From an uncultured bacterium (GTDB lineage: Bacteria; Verrucomicrobiota; Kiritimatiellia; RFP12; CAIWXQ01), in NCBI GenBank assembly GCA_903916675.1, contig CAIWXQ010000041.1:1-64000 (forward strand): 64,000 nt of DNA, written 5' to 3'. Of this stretch, positions 575-9,285 are shown piece by piece. Below the pieces are notes generated by a model. That model did not search any database. It saw nothing but the letters and a program-made list of their open reading frames with translations, and was not told the DNA's origin. Both the position numbers and the translations under genes were made by a program. Each line of letters opens with the position of its first letter. Position 1 is the first letter of the stretch.

Positions 575-1873
575 CTACACCCCATTCCCCAGCGTCAGCC
601 GCGGGATCGCCAGCCGCCTCAGCGCACTCTCCCCCCGTACCAGCGCCCCATGCCTCTCCGGTGCCGCATCCCGCGCATGCACCGGCTTGTCCCGCAGCGC
701 CATCATCGCCGCTGGAGACACCACGTTCTGCCCATACCGATCCCGTAACCCATCCACCGCCGCGTCCAACTTCCCGTACCCCTGCCGGGCAGGCGTCTCC
801 TCGAAGAAATCCAACTGCCGTTTCCCCTCTGCCAGGAGCCCTCCCAGCCAGACCAGGGTAGACCGGTAAATCTCCCCCGGCTGATAGATCGCATCAAAAA
901 GCAGCCGTACCACGGGCACAACCTCGCAGTCATGGCAGGTCGGGCAGGGGAGTGCCGCACAGTTTGCCCGACTGCTGTAGTCCTTCTGCCGCAGGCAGAG
1001 CCCGATCTCCCGCGCCAGGTGCTGGTGGCGGCGTAGTTTGGCCAGCGCCGCCCCCAGGTTGCGCATGGCTTCGGCAAAGACGAGCCTCCCATCTTCACTG
1101 GGCGGGGAGAACGTGTGCCCCTTCATCATGCTGGCATAACTCTGCTTGGCGTCCAGTTCGAGCGGGATCATGCGCCGCCCCTGCAACTCGCACCAGGTCG
1201 CATGGCCGGGTTTGTGGAGCAGGCGATGCACCTCCACTTCCGGCATCCGGGTGAAGTCGTACGCCGTCACAATCCCCCGGGCCTGCAGTTTCTCGGCACT
1301 CGCCGGCCCGATCCCCCAGACCTTGGCAATGGGCGTGTGCTGCAACAGCACCGGGACATGTTCCCGCCGCACAATGGTCTGACCGTTGGGCTTCCGGAAC
1401 TTGGAGCAGAGTTTGGCCAGGGTCTTGGTCAGACTGATCCCGACCGACACCGTGAGCCCCATTTCCGTTGCCACCGCCGTGCGGATCCCTTCCGCCACAG
1501 CTTCCAGGGACCGGTCGAGAATCTGACCGCACCCGGTCAGGTCGGCGAACGCCTCGTCGATCGAGTACTCCTCTACCAACGGCGAAAAGCGCCGCAGGAT
1601 GGCAAACAACCGCTGGGAATACAGGCTGTAGACTTCGTAGTCCGACGGCACCACCACCAACCCCGGGCAGAGCCGCCGGGCCTCGTGCAACTGCACCCCG
1701 CGCTTGATCCCGCACGCCTTGGCCTCATAACTCGCCGCCGCAATGATCCCCCGCTCCGCGCCCGTCACCACCGGCCGCCCCCGCAACGCAGGGTTCAGCG
1801 CCTGCTCCACCGACGCAAAAAAGCCGTCCGCGTCCACGTGCAGCAACGTGCAGTCTTGAAACCGGGAATCCAT
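575..1873 (-). CDS. Y-family DNA polymerase (DinB/UmuC-type, translesion)
   Basis: A 432-aa error-prone polymerase. The DxD metal site (Asp14, Asp16 in HVDADGFF) and the catalytic SIDE motif (104-107, in EEYSIDEAF) are intact. A helix-hairpin-helix thumb follows. Near the C-terminus QLDFF matches a beta-clamp binding motif. The start at 1873 is chosen because the product then begins a few residues before the palm, as in DinB; a longer frame from 1939 would run over the shared promoter. A cysteine cluster (C-x5-C-x2-C-x2-C, about residues 310-325) is unusual for DinB. The gene is divergent from a LexA/UmuD-type repressor gene, so damage induction is likely. DinB versus UmuC subgroup is not resolved. 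Confidence 0.9.
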   Translation of the reverse strand: MDSRFQDCTLLHVDADGFFASVEQALNPALRGRPVVTGAERGIIAAASYEAKACGIKRGVQLHEARRLCPGLVVVPSDYEVYSLYSQRLFAILRRFSPLVEEYSIDEAFADLTGCGQILDRSLEAVAEGIRTAVATEMGLTVSVGISLTKTLAKLCSKFRKPNGQTIVRREHVPVLLQHTPIAKVWGIGPASAEKLQARGIVTAYDFTRMPEVEVHRLLHKPGHATWCELQGRRMIPLELDAKQSYASMMKGHTFSPPSEDGRLVFAEAMRNLGAALAKLRRHQHLAREIGLCLRQKDYSSRANCAALPCPTCHDCEVVPVVRLLFDAIYQPGEIYRSTLVWLGGLLAEGKRQLDFFEETPARQGYGKLDAAVDGLRDRYGQNVVSPAAMMALRDKPVHARDAAPERHGALVRGESALRRLAIPRLTLGNGV

Positions 1874-1896
1874 GCCAGCACGGTAATGGATTTCGT

Positions 1897-1926
1897 TTGC
1901 CCGATACAGAGTAAAAACTCTATTAT
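1897..1926 (+). promoter_or_regulatory. promoter of the LexA-like gene, probably giving a leaderless mRNA
   Basis: A TTGCCC -35 (1897-1902) and TATTAT -10 (1921-1926) are separated by 18 bp. The -10 ends six bases before the ATG at 1933 and no Shine-Dalgarno sequence is present, so transcription probably begins at or next to the start codon. The operator palindrome lies between the two boxes. Confidence 0.5.
1908..1921. promoter_or_regulatory. 14-bp operator palindrome between divergent SOS-type genes
   Basis: AGAGTAAAAACTCT is a perfect inverted repeat (AGAGT, four A, ACTCT). It sits between the -35 and -10 of the repressor gene and 35 bp upstream of the polymerase start. The position suits autoregulation and co-regulation by the adjacent LexA-type protein. 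That this protein binds it is inference. The motif differs from the E. coli CTGT-N8-ACAG box. Confidence 0.55.
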
Positions 1927-1932
1927 CTCCCC

Positions 1933-2523
1933 ATGGCACCCAAATCCAAACTCAGCGAGCGCATTCCGGTCCTCAATGAGTACATCCGGCAGCATGGCCG
2001 GGCACCCACGCAAGAGGAACTGCGCCGGTTGTTTCGGGTGAAATCCCGGAATACCGCCTTCGTGCTGGCCAAGGGGTTCGTGCGCGCAGGCGTCCTGATC
2101 CGCACCGCCACCGGACGGCTGGTCGCCCCGCCGCAGCGCGCAGCCAGCACCGTGCGCCTGCTCGGGAGCGTGGCCGCCGGCTTCCCGTCGCCAGCCGAGG
2201 AATCCCTGCTCAACACCATGACCCTGGACGAGTACCTGATCACCAAACCCACCGCCACCTTCATGCTGCGGGTGGAAGGGGACAGCATGATCGACGCCGG
2301 CATCCTGCCGGACGACGTGGTTTTGGTGGAGCGCGGCCGGACCGTCCGCAACGGCGACATCGTGATTGCCTGCATCGACGGACAATGGACCATGAAATAT
2401 TTTTACAAGGACGCCACCGGCGTGCGCCTCGAAGCCGCCAACAAGAAATACCCAACCATCCGCCCCATCCACAAACTGGCCGTGGAAGGCGTCGTCAGCA
2501 GCGTCATCCGGAAACTGCTCTGA
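1933..2523 (+). CDS. LexA/UmuD-type self-cleaving repressor (S24 peptidase)
   Basis: A 196-aa protein with a LexA-like winged-helix DNA-binding region (about 5-65) and an S24 serine protease domain. The nucleophile is Ser118 in GDSMIDAG and the general base Lys155 in WTMKYF. The predicted cleavage bond is Ala82-Gly83 in VAAGFPSPAEE, which is closer to UmuD (QAGFPSPA) than to LexA. It is therefore a full repressor with a UmuD-like protease half. On RecA-stimulated cleavage it should derepress itself and the divergent polymerase. It could be the sole LexA or a dedicated repressor for this pair; the window does not decide. Confidence 0.9.
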   Translation: MAPKSKLSERIPVLNEYIRQHGRAPTQEELRRLFRVKSRNTAFVLAKGFVRAGVLIRTATGRLVAPPQRAASTVRLLGSVAAGFPSPAEESLLNTMTLDEYLITKPTATFMLRVEGDSMIDAGILPDDVVLVERGRTVRNGDIVIACIDGQWTMKYFYKDATGVRLEAANKKYPTIRPIHKLAVEGVVSSVIRKLL

Positions 2524-2908
2524 CCATGGCTATCTGGAGCGTTGACAGCACACAGAAATGCACTACGATCTCAGTTACGTGATTGGGCTGCCCAGTTGGA
2601 ACGAGACTAGACCATGAGTTTCTACGAAGGAACACCCCAAGAGACCGCCCCAGTGGTGATCAAGGACGAGCTTCAGATCGCCTCCAAAACCCAATGGGAA
2701 AGTTGGTTTCTGCCCGGAACTAGGCGCAAGGACGTCCATCCCGTCGAAAATTTCGGAAGCCCCGGCAGGAGTTTGTATACGGCCTGTATACGTTCTGGCA
2801 GGTATTTAGTGGGTACAGCAAGGATCGGCAAGGAACACAAGTGGCACACGCAGACAACAGGAAACGCTGTTTTATTGGCGATTATGCGTATTTATTGGGC
2901 ATTAGGGA
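2524..2908. other. gene-poor stretch before tRNA-His
   Basis: No convincing gene. A 114-codon frame (2614-2958, plus) runs into the tRNA and matches nothing I recognise. An 11-bp-period tandem of TGTATACG occurs at 2774-2781 and 2785-2792. The composition is more AT-rich than the flanks. An old insertion next to the tRNA is possible but not shown. Confidence 0.3.
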
Positions 2909-2986
2909 TGGGGCGAAAGACGGGGCTCGAACCCGCGACCATCAGATCCACAATCTGACGCTCTAACCAACTGAGCTACTTTCGCC
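2909..2986 (-). tRNA. tRNA-His (GTG)
   Basis: The cloverleaf folds on the minus strand. The anticodon loop is TTGTGGA with anticodon GTG on a TCAGA/TCTGA stem. The acceptor is GCGAAAG/CTTTCGC. The extra 5' G at 2986 (position -1) faces discriminator C73, the identity hallmark of tRNA-His. CCA is encoded (2911-2909). Confidence 0.95.
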
Positions 2987-3001
2987 ACGGAACGGTGTTG
3001 C

Positions 3002-3031
3002 ACTATAGCAGACCATGCGATCCAGGCGCAA
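3002..3031 (-). promoter_or_regulatory. sigma-70-like promoter of tRNA-His
   Basis: Read on the minus strand, TTGCGC (-35, 3031-3026) and TATAGT (-10, 3007-3002) are 18 bp apart, 16 bp upstream of the mature tRNA 5' end. Confidence 0.6.
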
Positions 3032-3173
3032 GGCGATCTCAGCGTCCCTGACGTGCGTGAATGTTGTGTGCGCGTCAAGCTGCCTTGTTTCAATTCCGCC
3101 ACCACCTGTTTGGTGGCAACGAAGACATTGGCACGTAGCGTGCGGGGGATGTCTTGTGCAGGACGCGGCAGAC

Positions 3174-4331
3174 ATGAAGAATAAGCCGTCGGTTGTGGTG
3201 TTTCTTAACTCGTTCTGGGCTGGTCAAGCCGGCATCAGCGGCGGCGACCAGATCGTCGTACAACTGCTCAAACAGCAGCGCGACCGGTTTGACCGCGTGG
3301 TGGTGGTAACTTCGGCGGCCGGGCAACACTTGCTGGAAGGCGTGGCATCGGATCTGACGTTCGTGCGCACTGACAGTGACGGCGATTGCCTGGGACTGTT
3401 TCCCAGTTATGTCCTGCGGACGTGGCGCGCGCTGTTGCGTCTGCGCACCCTGCGGCAGGTCGACGTCCTGTTCACGGCGTCTGATTTTTTCCCGGATGTC
3501 GTGCCGTCGCGGGTGCTGCAGGCGCTGCGTGGCGGGCCGCGATGGCTGCAATGCGTCTTTCACGTCTATCCGGACTGGCGTACGCGCCCTGGGTCGAAAC
3601 TGCGCAGTTTCGTTGCCCAGTGGCTGCAGCGGTTGTCGTTCCGCCTGATCCGGCGGGCTGACGGCGTGCTGGTAATCAACACGCAGGTGGGCGACCATCT
3701 GGCCGGGTTGGGCATTCGGCAAGACCGCATCGGCCTGCAATATCTGGGTATCAATCTGGACGAGATCGCCTCCGCCCGATCGGACGACCCGCGCGGCTAC
3801 GACGGAGTTTTCCTGGCCCGGCTGGCGCCCAGCAAGGGGATTTTCGATCTGCCCCGGATCTGGGCGAAGGTTGTGGCGCGGCAACCCGGGTTGCGGCTGG
3901 GGATCATCGGCGGCGGCGGCGAGCCGATCCGCGAAGAGTTGCGGCAAGCTTGCCGGCAGGCGGGCGTGGCAGACACGGTCGAGCTGCTCGGTTTCCTGCC
4001 GAACGAGGCGGCCTTCGCGATCCTGAAGCGGAGCCGGGTGTTTTTGTTTCCCAGCCACGAGGAGGGGTTCGGTCTGGCGATCGCCGAGGCGATGGCGTGC
4101 GGGTTGCCGGCCGTCGCGTGGGATCTTTCCGTTTACCGGGAGATTTTTGGAGAGACCATCCGGACGGCGCGGGAAGGGGACATCAACGTATTTTCCGACC
4201 ACGTCGGCGGCGCATTAAACGCATCTGCATCCGAGCGAGAAGCGGGACGGGAGTTTGTCCGGCGGTATTCCTGGCCGGAGTCCACGCGCCGCATCGCGAA
4301 CCAGATTGCGGCTAGCGCCGCACGAGGCTGA
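3174..4331 (+). CDS. glycosyltransferase family 4 (GT-B fold)
   Basis: A 385-aa cytoplasmic glycosyltransferase. The C-terminal half has the GT4 E-x7-E signature in SHEEGFGLAIAEAMACG, preceded by the donor-binding stretch LGIIGGGGEPIREEL. The start at 3174 (MKNKPSVVVFLN) opens the first Rossmann strand; an upstream in-frame extension to 3015 is unlike a GT N-terminus. The last 20 bp overlap the 3' end of the convergent dehydratase gene. The heptose genes nearby suggest a role in surface polysaccharide assembly. Donor and acceptor cannot be read from sequence. Confidence 0.85.
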   Translation: MKNKPSVVVFLNSFWAGQAGISGGDQIVVQLLKQQRDRFDRVVVVTSAAGQHLLEGVASDLTFVRTDSDGDCLGLFPSYVLRTWRALLRLRTLRQVDVLFTASDFFPDVVPSRVLQALRGGPRWLQCVFHVYPDWRTRPGSKLRSFVAQWLQRLSFRLIRRADGVLVINTQVGDHLAGLGIRQDRIGLQYLGINLDEIASARSDDPRGYDGVFLARLAPSKGIFDLPRIWAKVVARQPGLRLGIIGGGGEPIREELRQACRQAGVADTVELLGFLPNEAAFAILKRSRVFLFPSHEEGFGLAIAEAMACGLPAVAWDLSVYREIFGETIRTAREGDINVFSDHVGGALNASASEREAGREFVRRYSWPESTRRIANQIAASAARG

Positions 4332-5280
4332 GATCGTGCTCGACCATCTCGGCGGCGATCTCCGCCAGCGGCTTGCACGGATGCCAATCCAAGAGGCGCA
4401 CCGCCTTGGCGGTGTTGCCGCAGAGGACGACCTTCTCGGGGGGGCGGAAGAACCGCGGGTCGAACCGCACGTGGTCTTCGTAGCGCAACCCCACATGGCC
4501 AAAGGCGTGCGTGAGGAAAGTCCGCACCGTGTGGGTGGCGCCAGTGGCGATCACATAGTCGCCCGGCCGGTCCTGCTGGAGCATACGCCAGGCGGCCTGA
4601 ACGTACTCGGGGGCGTAGCCCCAGTCGCGTTCCGCGTCCAGTGCGCCCAACGTGAGCGTCTTTTCCAGCCCCAGTTTGATGCGCGCGACCGTGGATGTGA
4701 TCTTGCGGGTGACAAACTCGGGCCTCCGCCGGGGCGACTCGTGGTTGTAGAGGAAGCCTGTGGCGACAAAAAATCCCTGGTTGTCGCGATAATTACGGAC
4801 GAGATGGTACCCCGCCACCTTGGCGATGCCGTAGATAGAGCGCGGGTTGAGGGGCGTGTCCTCGTTCTGCGGCGAGGCGACCGTCTGCCCGAACATCTCG
4901 CTGGATCCTGCGTAGTAGAGCCGGCAGCCGGGCGTGCATTCGGACAGGGCCGAGACCAGCGCGTGCGTTGCGCAAAAGCTCTCGTTGAACGTGGAGATCT
5001 CGTCGTCCAACGAGTAATTAACGAAGCTTGGCGAGGCGAAGTGATAGCACTCCGTGGGGCCGGCCTGCTCGATGGTCTTGCGCAGGAATTGGTAATTGTC
5101 CAGGCTTCCGACATGGAGGTCGACGCGCTCTTTGCAGGCGGCCAGATTGGCCATTTTGGCGGCGTCCTCTGTTGTCGCGCGGCGTACGATGCCATGGACG
5201 GCATATCCCCGGGTCAGCAGAAATTCGGCTAGGTAGGAACCGTCCTGGCCTGTGATTCCGGTGATGAGTGCCGTTTTCAT
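4312..5280 (-). CDS. gmd: GDP-mannose 4,6-dehydratase-like short-chain dehydrogenase
   Basis: A 322-aa extended SDR. The N-terminal NAD(P)-binding motif is TGITGQDGSYLAEFLL, the active site has YGIAK (YxxxK) and SSEMFG at the catalytic Ser/Thr-Glu region, and NHESPRRR matches the Gmd nucleotide-sugar-binding loop. Gmd converts GDP-mannose to GDP-4-keto-6-deoxymannose, the precursor of GDP-fucose, rhamnose and perosamine. It is shorter than typical Gmd (about 345-370) and lies beside GDP-heptose genes, so GDP-heptose could be the substrate. No GDP-fucose synthase or other second-step enzyme is nearby. Confidence 0.8.
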   Translation of the reverse strand: MKTALITGITGQDGSYLAEFLLTRGYAVHGIVRRATTEDAAKMANLAACKERVDLHVGSLDNYQFLRKTIEQAGPTECYHFASPSFVNYSLDDEISTFNESFCATHALVSALSECTPGCRLYYAGSSEMFGQTVASPQNEDTPLNPRSIYGIAKVAGYHLVRNYRDNQGFFVATGFLYNHESPRRRPEFVTRKITSTVARIKLGLEKTLTLGALDAERDWGYAPEYVQAAWRMLQQDRPGDYVIATGATHTVRTFLTHAFGHVGLRYEDHVRFDPRFFRPPEKVVLCGNTAKAVRLLDWHPCKPLAEIAAEMVEHDLSLVRR

Positions 5281-5612
5281 AAGGGTGTCCGAAGCATCCG
5301 CCAGTAGAGCCAGTTGTTCGAAAAAGTACGGGTATCAAACCGGAACGTGCGCAACTTGACAAGCACAGAAAACGAGGCATGACGCAATTCAATGTGCGCA
5401 AAAGCTATGTTTAACACGCCCGTGCTGCGCGTGAAGATGTCAATTCTTGATGCATTACGCAAATAGACAACTGCGCGCCCGAATCTAGTGCCATCCGCGA
5501 CGTTACGGAACACGATGCCTGCCACCATTTCTTTTCCCCACAATCTTCCCGTCCGCGCCGACCACGAGGCGGTTGCTGCCATGTTACAACGCGAACGTAC
5601 TGCTTGACCCAC
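5277..5612 (-). CDS. doubtful short ORF upstream of gmd
   Basis: A 111-codon frame whose TGA overlaps the gmd start (ATGA). The overlap is weak evidence because gmd begins ATGA in any case. The C-terminus (WLYWRMLRTPL) looks protein-like but I recognise no family. It could be a remnant of a truncated polysaccharide gene. Confidence 0.2.
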   Translation of the reverse strand: MGQAVRSRCNMAATASWSARTGRLWGKEMVAGIVFRNVADGTRFGRAVVYLRNASRIDIFTRSTGVLNIAFAHIELRHASFSVLVKLRTFRFDTRTFSNNWLYWRMLRTPL

Positions 5613-5878
5613 GAACGCGCCGGTTGTCAGATTGTACGCAACGCGCCGAGGGTGCGCCAGACATCGGCCTTTGCATCTCGCATGCTTTTTGCCATCATAA
5701 TACGACTAGCAGGTTTCAGCAGGCACGTGTCCATCGCAGCCATGGGGCTATTTTCATCTCAATCCATGGTTAACGGCGGTAAATTCAGGAAGACGACAAA
5801 GTGTGAAGGGGCGGCTCCACTGCTGGAGCGCCCGAGTCTAACTCGGCCGCAAATTCCTCGCCTGTCAAGGAGGTCCCG
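5281..5878. other. lower-GC intergenic stretch between gmd and hddA
   Basis: About 600 bp, visibly less GC-rich than its neighbours, with only short doubtful frames. It must hold the divergent promoters of gmd and hddA, but I see no clear -35/-10 pair. A strong ribosome-binding site, AAGGAGGT at 5867-5874, precedes hddA by four bases. Confidence 0.4.
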
Positions 5879-6904
5879 ATGAATGCATGCGCAAGAGCCC
5901 CGCTTCGCTTAGGTCTGGCCGGCGGAGGGACCGATGTCTCTCCTTACTGTGACCTTTATGGCGGATATGTCCTCAATGCCACGATCGACCGCTATGCGTA
6001 CGCGGTGATCAAGCCATTGGACGATCCTGAAATCCGGCTCATCGCGACAGATCAGCAGAAAATCAAAATCACACCACTCGGCCAGCCGCTTCAATTCAAC
6101 GGGACGCTCGACCTTCATCAGGCTGTCTACAACGAGATAATCAACACGTTCAACGGCGGCTCACCAATTGCAATGGAAATGTCTACATTCTGCGACGCCC
6201 CTACGGGCTCGGGGCTGGGATCATCATCAACGCTCGTCGTGGCGATGATCAGAGCCTTCACCGAGCTCCTCAATATTCCCATGGATGATTACGCCTGTGC
6301 GCGGCTTGCCTACAAGATCGAGCGGTTGGACTGCGGATTGCAGGGGGGGCGGCAGGATCAGTATTCGGCGACCTTTGGCGGCTTTAATTTCATGGAATTT
6401 TATTCTGACGAACGCGCCATCATCAACTCGCTTAGGGTAAAAAACGGGGTTATTTGCGAATTAGAGGCATCCCTTTTGCTTTTCTACACCGGGGTCTCGA
6501 GAGAGTCGGCAAAGATCATCGCGGACCAGAGTTCTGGCGTCAAGAATGGGGTGCCGGAGGCTATTAAGGCCATGCATGCGATGAAGAACGAAGCCCTTTG
6601 CATGAAAGAATTCCTCTTAAAGGGAGATTTTGGCGGGATTGTAACCGCCATGCGCTCGGGGTGGGCGAGTAAGAAGAACTCTGCTCGAACAGTGACGACA
6701 CCGGTCATCGAGGAAATCTACGAGGTGGTTATGAAGGCGGGCGCCTTGGCCGGAAAAGTATCAGGAGCGGGAGGTGGCGGCTTCATGATCTTCTTTGTCC
6801 CGCTCAACAAACGGATGGACGTCATCCGTGCTCTTGGCCGTTTCAACGGGCAGGTCAGCAATTGTCATTTCACGAAGCACGGCACCCAAACCTGGAGAGT
6901 ATGA
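5879..6904 (+). CDS. hddA: D-glycero-alpha-D-manno-heptose-7-phosphate kinase
   Basis: A 341-aa GHMP kinase. Motif 1 is APLRLGLAGGGTDV, motif 2 (phosphate loop) is PTGSGLGSSST, and motif 3 is KVSGAGGGGFMIF near the C-terminus. This pattern and length match HddA, which phosphorylates heptose-7-phosphate at C1 to the 1,7-bisphosphate in the GDP-D-glycero-alpha-D-manno-heptose pathway. Its stop overlaps the start of a gene carrying the next two activities of that pathway, which firms up the call. Galactokinase-like or fucokinase relatives are less likely given the partner. Confidence 0.85.
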   Translation: MNACARAPLRLGLAGGGTDVSPYCDLYGGYVLNATIDRYAYAVIKPLDDPEIRLIATDQQKIKITPLGQPLQFNGTLDLHQAVYNEIINTFNGGSPIAMEMSTFCDAPTGSGLGSSSTLVVAMIRAFTELLNIPMDDYACARLAYKIERLDCGLQGGRQDQYSATFGGFNFMEFYSDERAIINSLRVKNGVICELEASLLLFYTGVSRESAKIIADQSSGVKNGVPEAIKAMHAMKNEALCMKEFLLKGDFGGIVTAMRSGWASKKNSARTVTTPVIEEIYEVVMKAGALAGKVSGAGGGGFMIFFVPLNKRMDVIRALGRFNGQVSNCHFTKHGTQTWRV

Positions 6905-8133
6905 TGGGGACGGGCGCGACGGTTTTTGTCCTAGCCGGTGGTTTGGGCACCCGACTTGCCCATGCGATTGGCGACGTGCCGAAGCCGATGGCCGATATTG
7001 CCGGCCATCCCTTTCTGGAATGGCAGCTGAAATATTTCATAAAACATAACTTTCGTGATTTCGTCCTGATGGTTGGCCACAAAAAGGAGGCCATCATGGA
7101 TTTTTTTCATGACGGCGCATCCCTGGGATCTCGGATCCGGTACTCGGCCGAGGAGGAACTGCTCGGAACAGGAGGCGCGTTTCTTCAGGCATTGGAGCGA
7201 TTTCCCTGCGAGTCATTTGTGCTTGCCAATGGCGACACCTATTTCGCAATTCCGATCCGCGTTCTGCTCAACCATGCGCGAGAAAGGGTGGGGGTGTCCG
7301 TCGGCCTCAAGCTGATGGACCGCCCGCAGCGGTACGGATGCGTGCGACTGGGAGCCGGACACGAAATTCTGGCGGTTGAGGAGAAGCGACTGGATGTGGC
7401 CGAGGGTTATATCAACGGAGGAATTTATGCCGGCGAGACCGCGGTCCTGCGTTCGTTCCGCGTTGAAAAGTGTTCATTGGAGAACGATCTTTTTCCCCGG
7501 CTGATGAAAAAACACGCATTGTTGGGGATTCCCTTTGGCGGCGGTTTTTTGGACATCGGAATACCGGAGGATTATTACCGGGGGCAAAGCCTGATTCCGT
7601 CGTGGTGCAGTCAGGAAGAAACACCGGCGCTTTTTTTGGACCGCGACGGAATCCTGATTGAGGACCGGAAATACGAAGCCGACCCGGAAAGACTGGTGTT
7701 CAAGGAGGAAGGGGTTGGCTTATTCCGGCGTTGCCTGCGGAAGGGGTGGAAACTAATTATTGTCTCGAACCAGGCCGGCGTTGCCAAGGGGATTCTTCCC
7801 CGGTCTGCGGTTGAAGACGTGAACGCCCGTATCAGGAGCCATTTTGCTGACTGGGGGGTCGAGTTCACGGATTTTTACCACTGCCCCTTTCATGCCGATG
7901 GAAAGCTTCCGGAATTTACAAGAGAAAGCCTGCGAAGAAAGCCCGCTCCGGGAATGCTGCTGGACGCCGCAGAACGTTGGCGAATCGACATGACACGGTC
8001 AATCATGATCGGCGACAAAGATTCCGACATGATCAATCTTCCCTATCTGCGCTCCTTTATCATTCCCGGCAGATATGCGATCAAAAACACCTCCCTGATT
8101 AGAAGTTACAGCGAAATCGAGTCTCTCGTCTGA
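6901..8133 (+). CDS. bifunctional heptose-1-P guanylyltransferase / heptose-1,7-bisphosphatase (HddC-GmhB fusion)
   Basis: A 410-aa two-domain enzyme. Residues about 1-235 are a nucleotidyltransferase (FVLAGGLGTRL, KPM, then ANGDTYF and FLDIGIPEDY) as in HddC. About 240-410 is a HAD phosphatase as in GmhB (LFLDRDGILIED, SNQAGVAKG, RRKPAPGM, IGDKDSDM). Together they dephosphorylate heptose-1,7-bisphosphate and load heptose-1-phosphate onto GDP. Start ATGATG overlaps the hddA stop (ATGA), so translation is coupled. The GmhB half keeps one Cys (HCPFH) but lacks the other three zinc ligands of E. coli GmhB (the His, and the CDC pair replaced by SLR), so it is probably zinc-free. Confidence 0.85.
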   Translation: MMGTGATVFVLAGGLGTRLAHAIGDVPKPMADIAGHPFLEWQLKYFIKHNFRDFVLMVGHKKEAIMDFFHDGASLGSRIRYSAEEELLGTGGAFLQALERFPCESFVLANGDTYFAIPIRVLLNHARERVGVSVGLKLMDRPQRYGCVRLGAGHEILAVEEKRLDVAEGYINGGIYAGETAVLRSFRVEKCSLENDLFPRLMKKHALLGIPFGGGFLDIGIPEDYYRGQSLIPSWCSQEETPALFLDRDGILIEDRKYEADPERLVFKEEGVGLFRRCLRKGWKLIIVSNQAGVAKGILPRSAVEDVNARIRSHFADWGVEFTDFYHCPFHADGKLPEFTRESLRRKPAPGMLLDAAERWRIDMTRSIMIGDKDSDMINLPYLRSFIIPGRYAIKNTSLIRSYSEIESLV

Positions 8134-8160
8134 ATGCGCAATGCGCAAGGATCCGTCCAC

Positions 8161-9285
8161 ATGCGAATCGCCATCATCTGCGACGAACTTGATCATGGGC
8201 GCCAGACCACGGGGATCAGCGTCTTTGTCCAAGAACTGCTCGCTGGATTGCGGCAGGTGTCGACCGAAGAAGAATTTCTGCTCATCCACGCCGACGCAAG
8301 GGTGCAACTTGGCGATGGCGGCCGTTTTCGAGATGTCATTCTCCCCCATGCCGGTGGCGAACTGATGCGCAACCTCAAACACCTGCCACGGCTGCTGCGC
8401 GAACTTGCGGTGGAAGTGGTGCATGAGCCGCGGCATTTCCCGCCGCGGCTTCCCGCAGGCATCAAGGGTGTGATCACAATCCATGATCTAGCCTCGATCA
8501 GCCACGCGCCACCCGGCTGGCAGTCGTTGGTGGTGTGTTTGCGCCAATGGGTTGGTTTGATGGTCCTGCTACGGCACTATACATGCGTGGCGGCGATTTC
8601 GCAATGGACGGCGGACGAGATCCACCGCTGGCTTGGCATCCGGCGTGACAAGATCCAAACAATCCTGCAGGCCATCACGCCCAATTTTCGGCCGGCGTCC
8701 ACGGCGGCAGTTGCGGCGCTCCGGTGCAAATACAAACTTGCCGGTTCTTACTGGCTGAACGTGGGGACAATTGGCTGGCGCAAGAATCAGACGGAACTGG
8801 TACGTGCCTTTGAACAGGTGGCCAGCCGCTTTCCGGAGGTCACACTGGTCATATCCGGGAGACCTTCCGATGCGTGGAGCCAGCTTAGCGCGGCGGTTGC
8901 CGTGGCAAAGCTTGGGGGGCGAATCCGCCTGCTTACGGATGTGCCGGATGAGGAGATGCCGGCCCTTTATACGGCTGCCGACTGGCTCATCTTTCCCAGC
9001 ATCTGCGAAGGGTTCGGGCTGCCTCTGCTGGAGGCGCAGGTATGCGGCACGCCCGTGATTTGCTCGCGCAACAGTTCACTGCGGGAGATCGGGGGCGACA
9101 GCATAGCGCCCATTGAGAACCCGCCACTGGCCAGTGCCATCGCGGCCGCAATTGTGGACGCGCAGCCCAGACGCGAGGCGTTGGTCGCGGCGGGGTTTTG
9201 CAACGCACAACGATTCTCGCGGGAGAAACGCGCCCGTGCCTACCTGCAAATTTACAGGGAGCTAGCGATTCGGCGTCGCGCCTAG
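8161..9285 (+). CDS. glycosyltransferase family 4
   Basis: A 374-aa GT-B glycosyltransferase. It begins MRIAIICDELDHGRQTTGIS, has a linker around NVGTIGWRKNQTELVRA, and a donor site SICEGFGLPLLEAQVCG carrying the E-x7-E pair. The start at 8161 has AAGGA nine bases upstream; an ATG at 8134 directly after the previous stop would add nine residues. It lies 27 bp behind the HddC-GmhB gene on the same strand, probably in one operon. A heptosyl- or mannosyltransferase role is inference. Confidence 0.85.
   Translation: MRIAIICDELDHGRQTTGISVFVQELLAGLRQVSTEEEFLLIHADARVQLGDGGRFRDVILPHAGGELMRNLKHLPRLLRELAVEVVHEPRHFPPRLPAGIKGVITIHDLASISHAPPGWQSLVVCLRQWVGLMVLLRHYTCVAAISQWTADEIHRWLGIRRDKIQTILQAITPNFRPASTAAVAALRCKYKLAGSYWLNVGTIGWRKNQTELVRAFEQVASRFPEVTLVISGRPSDAWSQLSAAVAVAKLGGRIRLLTDVPDEEMPALYTAADWLIFPSICEGFGLPLLEAQVCGTPVICSRNSSLREIGGDSIAPIENPPLASAIAAAIVDAQPRREALVAAGFCNAQRFSREKRARAYLQIYRELAIRRRA

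Follow-up and report, generated by a model that had tools for sequence, protein, structure and literature searches.

A putative HddC-GmhB fusion without three of the four zinc ligands, encoded next to hddA in an uncultured Kiritimatiellia bacterium

Can a single polypeptide carry two consecutive steps in the synthesis of GDP-heptose, the activated form of a seven-carbon sugar of cell surfaces, with a phosphatase half that does without zinc? The question is raised by a gene in the 64,000-nucleotide stretch of DNA analyzed here (hereafter the window), whose features are listed in Table 1. The gene was translated as a single open reading frame of 410 residues with no internal stops, in which Pfam placed an NTP_transferase domain at residues 10-230 and NCBIfam a histidinol-phosphatase/HAD-IIIA domain at about residues 242-378. 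HddC, histidinol-phosphatase and GmhB were the top-scoring curated NCBIfam families. The chain order, guanylyltransferase followed by phosphatase, was opposite to the order of the reactions. With an uninterrupted frame and both domains recognized, the original prediction of HddC and GmhB halves on one polypeptide was upheld. The frame was continuous through the linker and the AlphaFold model displayed both domains confidently on one chain, leaving no place for an alternative start or stop separating them. The predicted coupling to hddA was also found, as the start codon (ATG, 6901) overlapped the hddA stop codon (TGA, 6902-6904) in an ATGA lying within GTATGATG. A frameshifted C-terminus was considered and rejected, as neither of the two alternative frames across the final 57 codons encoded a GmhB-like C-terminus. 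On every point that could be checked, the earlier description of this gene proved right.

Table 1. Location of the features discussed, in window coordinates unless a locus is named
Feature	Position	Strand	Remarks
tRNA-His	2909-2985	-	adjoins the glycan cluster; about 3 kb from hddA/fused gene
GT4-type glycosyltransferase	3015..4331	+	upstream in the cluster
GDP-mannose 4,6-dehydratase-like gene	4312..5280	-	divergent from hddA, upstream
hddA, putative GHMP heptose-7-phosphate kinase	5879..6904	+	341 aa; 71% identical to B. pseudomallei WcbL
Putative fused HddC-like guanylyltransferase/GmhB-like phosphatase gene	6901..8133	+	410 aa; stop codon 8131-8133
N-terminal nucleotidyltransferase half	6922..7590	+	residues about 8-230; GGLGTR motif and EEELLGTGGA (84-93)
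C-terminal HAD-IIIA phosphatase half	7621..8031	+	residues about 241-377; D247/D249, S289, R346/K347, D372/D376
Former zinc loop	7882..7941	+	residues 328-347, CPFHADGKLPEFTRESLRRK; C328 kept; F330, S343 and R345 replace the other ligands
C-terminal tail	8032..8130	+	residues 378-410; no confident alignment to other GmhB proteins
GT4-type glycosyltransferase	8134..9285	+	directly downstream of the fused gene
AGE gene with fusion, Ensifer	L068 3705-4982
AGE gene with fusion, S. fredii	L069 6267-7460
AGE gene with fusion, Methylosinus	L060 6403-7536
AGE gene with fusion, Allorhizobium	L239 9028-10203
AGE gene with HldE, Sulfitobacter	L072 3835-4983
AGE gene with HldE, Gemmobacter	L238 7959-9131

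The closest solved sequence to the N-terminal half was HddC of Y. pseudotuberculosis (PDB 5xhw/6jq8; E 7e-31, about 30% identity), which was also the best solved fold match of the full-length model (TM 0.90 on target). PF00483 matched this half with 69 bits for a cut-off of 21, and the GXGXR motif was present as GLGTR at residues 14-18. In Y. pseudotuberculosis HddC, the guanine-contacting glutamate sits in the motif EXXPLGTGGA (PMC6981941); the equivalent motif of the fused protein kept the glutamate and displayed leucine in place of proline. Unlike the solved HddC, the domain makes up only the first half of a longer polypeptide here. The HddC equivalog (NF049965) was the best-scoring family, yet with 154.3 bits it remained under its cut-off of 300.

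The C-terminal half was closest, among solved sequences, to E. coli GmhB (PDB 2gmw/3l8e; E about 1e-23), and the model of this half alone had the same protein as its best fold match (TM 0.85 on query). It passed the cut-offs of the HAD-IIIA/histidinol-phosphatase models TIGR01662 (83.7 bits versus 44.6) and TIGR01656 (103.9 versus 84.15), while those of the GmhB families TIGR00213 (97.6 versus 149.6), NF006506 (95.4 versus 178) and NF050049 (75.2 versus 250) were not reached. Because of these scores under the NCBIfam HddC and GmhB cut-offs, the halves are referred to as HddC-like and GmhB-like. The cut-offs are strict, since the product of the neighboring hddA, close as it is to the measured kinase WcbL, also fails its own (370 of 600 bits). 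The E-values of the two halves are not explained by chance. The predicted HddC and GmhB identity of the two halves was supported by the sequence comparisons and by the structural models, and the claim that two consecutive steps of GDP-heptose synthesis lie on one chain held to the extent that HddC and GmhB are the closest solved relatives, from which we infer the putative activities.

In the alignment with E. coli GmhB, the eight catalytic and phosphate-binding positions checked were all kept, T53 as serine (D11=D247, D13=D249, T53=S289, R110=R346, K111=K347, D136=D372, K137=K373, D140=D376). The zinc site C92/H94/C107/C109 read C328/F330/S343/R345, so that three of the four ligands were missing, as had been predicted, in a loop of equal length. 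The phosphatase half, which the original prediction had described as probably zinc-free, is therefore predicted to be so at the level of its ligands. The zinc of GmhB is structural, not catalytic, and such a role is consistent with zinc-less members having kept their catalytic residues. The former zinc loop was predicted to be ordered, with pLDDT of 93-95 in the full-length model and 85-86 or more in the half alone. The full-length model, for which the input comprised 50 relatives taken from viral contigs and a single metagenome-assembled contig, consisted of two confident domains (mean pLDDT 94.3, pTM 0.90). The fused protein differs from E. coli GmhB in its three replaced ligands, its position behind a nucleotidyltransferase and its C-terminus. 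A zinc-ligand-free GmhB-like structure already exists: Mesorhizobium loti mll2559 (PDB 2o2x, 1.5 A) has a GmhB-like fold and a loop also devoid of the CxH/CxC ligands (CAYH...DHPMRKP), but it is a stand-alone protein.

The gene next to the fusion almost certainly encodes HddA, judging from its identity to WcbL of B. pseudomallei (PDB 4usk, 4usm), a protein with measured heptose-7-phosphate kinase activity (PMC4691232). Following the pathway order of PMC10680097 and PMC4691232, HddA would phosphorylate heptose 7-phosphate at C1 to give heptose 1,7-bisphosphate. The HAD half would then remove the 7-phosphate, with D247 as the nucleophile forming an aspartyl-phosphate, D249 as acid/base, and Mg2+, and the HddC half would join heptose 1-phosphate to GMP from GTP, yielding GDP-heptose. 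With the former zinc loop held by packing and not by metal, the phosphatase half should work without zinc. A channelling of heptose 1-phosphate from one half to the other is speculative. The fused gene thus likely encodes a bifunctional heptose-1,7-bisphosphate phosphatase/heptose-1-phosphate guanylyltransferase, on a horizontally acquired cassette. In Burkholderia, unlike here, the phosphatase is separate, and the published assay couples WcbL to the stand-alone WcbN (PMC4691232). Two heptose-pathway steps per chain are also found in HldE, the kinase/adenylyltransferase of ADP-heptose synthesis (PMC10948575), but the fused protein joins a different pair of steps through unrelated domains.

The source genome is a multi-contig assembly, 87% complete. 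In this assembly GmhA, the isomerase on which the pathway depends at an earlier step, was not found by TIGR00441 or PF13580, and no GmhB-like protein was found besides the HAD half. An ADP-heptose pathway was unsupported, as no HldE scored over the cut-off in the 87%-complete assembly. The second TIGR01662 (HAD-IIIA) match of the genome, considered as an alternative GmhB, was a phosphoglycolate-phosphatase-like HAD. The missing GmhA, the HddC and GmhB scores under cut-off, the long branch of the HAD half and the poorly aligning residues 378-410 are points against the heptose reading. The phosphatase and nucleotidyltransferase halves could also serve another sugar phosphate, derived from an alternative heptose or from a sugar of the mannose type, on which the HddA-like kinase would act as well. 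Such a reading would account for the absence of a detected GmhA and would agree with scores under the equivalog cut-offs and with the presence in the cluster of glycosyltransferases and of the GDP-mannose 4,6-dehydratase-like gene. It is improbable in view of the 71% identity between HddA and WcbL, a measured heptose-7-phosphate kinase (PMC4691232), and of the occurrence of the fusion with gmhA in other loci.

Three lost zinc ligands, a C-terminal tail that can hardly be aligned and a HAD half that formed a long branch without close kin in the tree could also indicate that only the nucleotidyltransferase half works, the HAD half being in decay or regulatory while another phosphatase acts on the heptose bisphosphate. 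Such a decay appears very improbable: all eight catalytic and phosphate-binding positions were kept, the GmhB fold was confidently predicted with its loop included, the assembly held no other GmhB-like protein that could be found, and zinc-less halves with intact catalytic residues recurred in many fusions. There is a negligible chance that two neighboring genes were joined artificially during sequencing or assembly: although the source assembly is incomplete and in several contigs and adjacent separate genes are known, the frame was continuous across the linker, and unrelated complete plasmids, phage contigs and other genomes contain this architecture too.

How widespread the fusion is, a check proposed with the original prediction, was addressed by searches that found it in many other bacteria, on plasmids and in phage contigs. 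Besides the window genome, three genomes of the phylum (G267, G154 and G309) gave full-length matches, as did 66 plasmid records at 80% coverage or more (a few of them being adjacent separate genes), three phage records of fecal origin and five IMG/VR contigs. On plasmids the fused protein was annotated as 'HAD-IIIA family hydrolase'. Fusions on plasmids of Azospirillum, Allorhizobium, Ensifer, Methylosinus and Niveispirillum displayed the same domain order, kept the catalytic residues and were mostly zinc-less; they were 32-36% identical to the window protein over the aligned length, several stood beside hddA, gmhA or an AGE isomerase, and two Azospirillum copies kept the full zinc site. Searches for close relatives in the genome contigs, the order, the class and the phylum, and with single proteins in viral contigs, gave none above 37% full-length identity. 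hddA adjoined the fusion in Allorhizobium, Ensifer and G267, and gmhA was found with hddA and/or the fusion in Niveispirillum, A. thermophilum, G267 and the viral contig L191. In independent loci the fused gene thus accompanied hddA and/or gmhA with no separate GmhB nearby; adjacent separate hddC and gmhB also occurred, for example in Aquabacterium. No paper describing an HddC-GmhB fusion was found in the literature search.

About 24 fusions were collected, roughly half of which lacked one or more zinc ligands (the window protein, L027, L056-L060, L068, L069, L071, L074 and L191) while the others kept all four. The zinc-less fusions kept the catalytic positions, except for D136 replaced by N in one of them and a variable K137. 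Among stand-alone HAD-IIIA proteins from cellular and plasmid loci, 6 of 17 had no zinc site. An association of zinc loss with fusion was thus rejected, since the site persisted in about half of the fusions and was missing from about a third of the stand-alone proteins. The fused architecture appeared in several separate places of the trees, and the zinc-keeping Azospirillum proteins L061 and L073 were nested in a mostly zinc-less clade; the site has therefore changed more than once. The trees did not support one zinc-less clade that would include the window protein, whose nucleotidyltransferase half branched beside that clade with weak support and whose HAD half branched elsewhere. Placing the HAD half in the zinc-less clade was not rejected by the AU test (p 0.10; 0.056 in an earlier test with zinc-less fusions alone). 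Fusion and zinc loss are both widespread, and neither is special to this genome.

Variants of this architecture were encountered along the way. The IMG/VR contig L191 (168 kb) encoded at 724-4217 the series gmhA, fused HddC-GmhB, hddA and a folE-like gene. This presumed phage thereby carries a complete GDP-heptose cassette, and the zinc loop of its fusion was largely deleted. Proteins of about 615-670 aa from Rhizobium phaseoli and Methylovirgula (L063 4932-6947 and L067 4875-6890) harbored a third domain, of the P-loop type and resembling uridine kinase, which followed the nucleotidyltransferase and HAD domains. In the same order as the window genome, GmhB-like HAD domains in frames of 440-665 aa (L008 1417-3411, L009 1261-3006, L016 763-2085 and L019 1108-3009) suggest other HAD-IIIA fusions.

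hddA and the fused gene were located between two glycosyltransferase genes and had a GC content of 0.54, versus 0.63 for the window. None of the 94 other related genomes searched, which all belong to the same order, had the full-length fusion, and in the phylum sample kinases equally close to HddA were present only in this genome and in G267, with a fused zinc-less gene directly following hddA in both and gmhA also near in G267. This distribution suggests horizontal acquisition, and the two genes probably reached the glycan cluster as a low-GC cassette. GC fell to about 0.55 over window positions 5000-8500 which, together with the tRNA-His, resembles an island boundary. The product of the divergent dehydratase-like gene scored 327 of 415, under the gmd equivalog cut-off, and is a possible consumer of a GDP-sugar. 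It might act on GDP-heptose toward 6-deoxyheptose.

Some of the fusion loci pointed to another isomerase. Four plasmid loci of alphaproteobacteria (Ensifer, S. fredii, Methylosinus and Allorhizobium; Table 1) had an AGE-family isomerase gene adjacent to the zinc-less fusion or one gene away, and gmhA was not found in the stretch read of those loci. In Sulfitobacter and Gemmobacter, HldE, AGE and a GmhB-like HAD were neighbors in varying order, again with no gmhA in the stretch read. A plasmid of Rhizobium sp. CC-CFT758 (L236 7947-10619) encoded an 890-aa protein made of AGE (residues 19-385) and a complete HldE (406-877). The gene lies near rfaD and a gene for a GmhB-like HAD whose zinc site is degenerate, and this AGE-HldE fusion ties AGE to the heptose pathway. 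The AGE genes are possible non-orthologous replacements of GmhA in those loci. Relatives of these AGE proteins were also found with mannose and sialic acid genes, so that heptose-linked AGE proteins acting as sedoheptulose 7-phosphate isomerases are only a hypothesis, and no paper on such an activity of AGE was found in the literature search. It is conceivable, if rather unlikely, that the fusion serves a GmhA-free heptose pathway in which heptose 7-phosphate would be made by an AGE-family isomerase in the alphaproteobacterial loci and by another isomerase here. The AGE reading does not explain the window genome because no convincing AGE protein was present there: the AGE family search gave 21 bits, below cut-off, and a heptose-linked AGE protein had no similarity to the proteins of this genome.

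The gene thus departs only modestly from known enzymes, which it combines in a fused, zinc-ligand-free form; this form already exists, unnamed, in many public genomes. A compact two-in-one enzyme putatively catalyzing the last two steps to GDP-heptose, probably with no structural zinc, could serve enzymatic GDP-heptose synthesis. Annotators should note that a 'HAD-IIIA family hydrolase' of about 410 aa is probably a guanylyltransferase/phosphatase fusion. For heptose biology, the more interesting consequence is the possible use, in some loci, of an AGE-type isomerase in place of GmhA.
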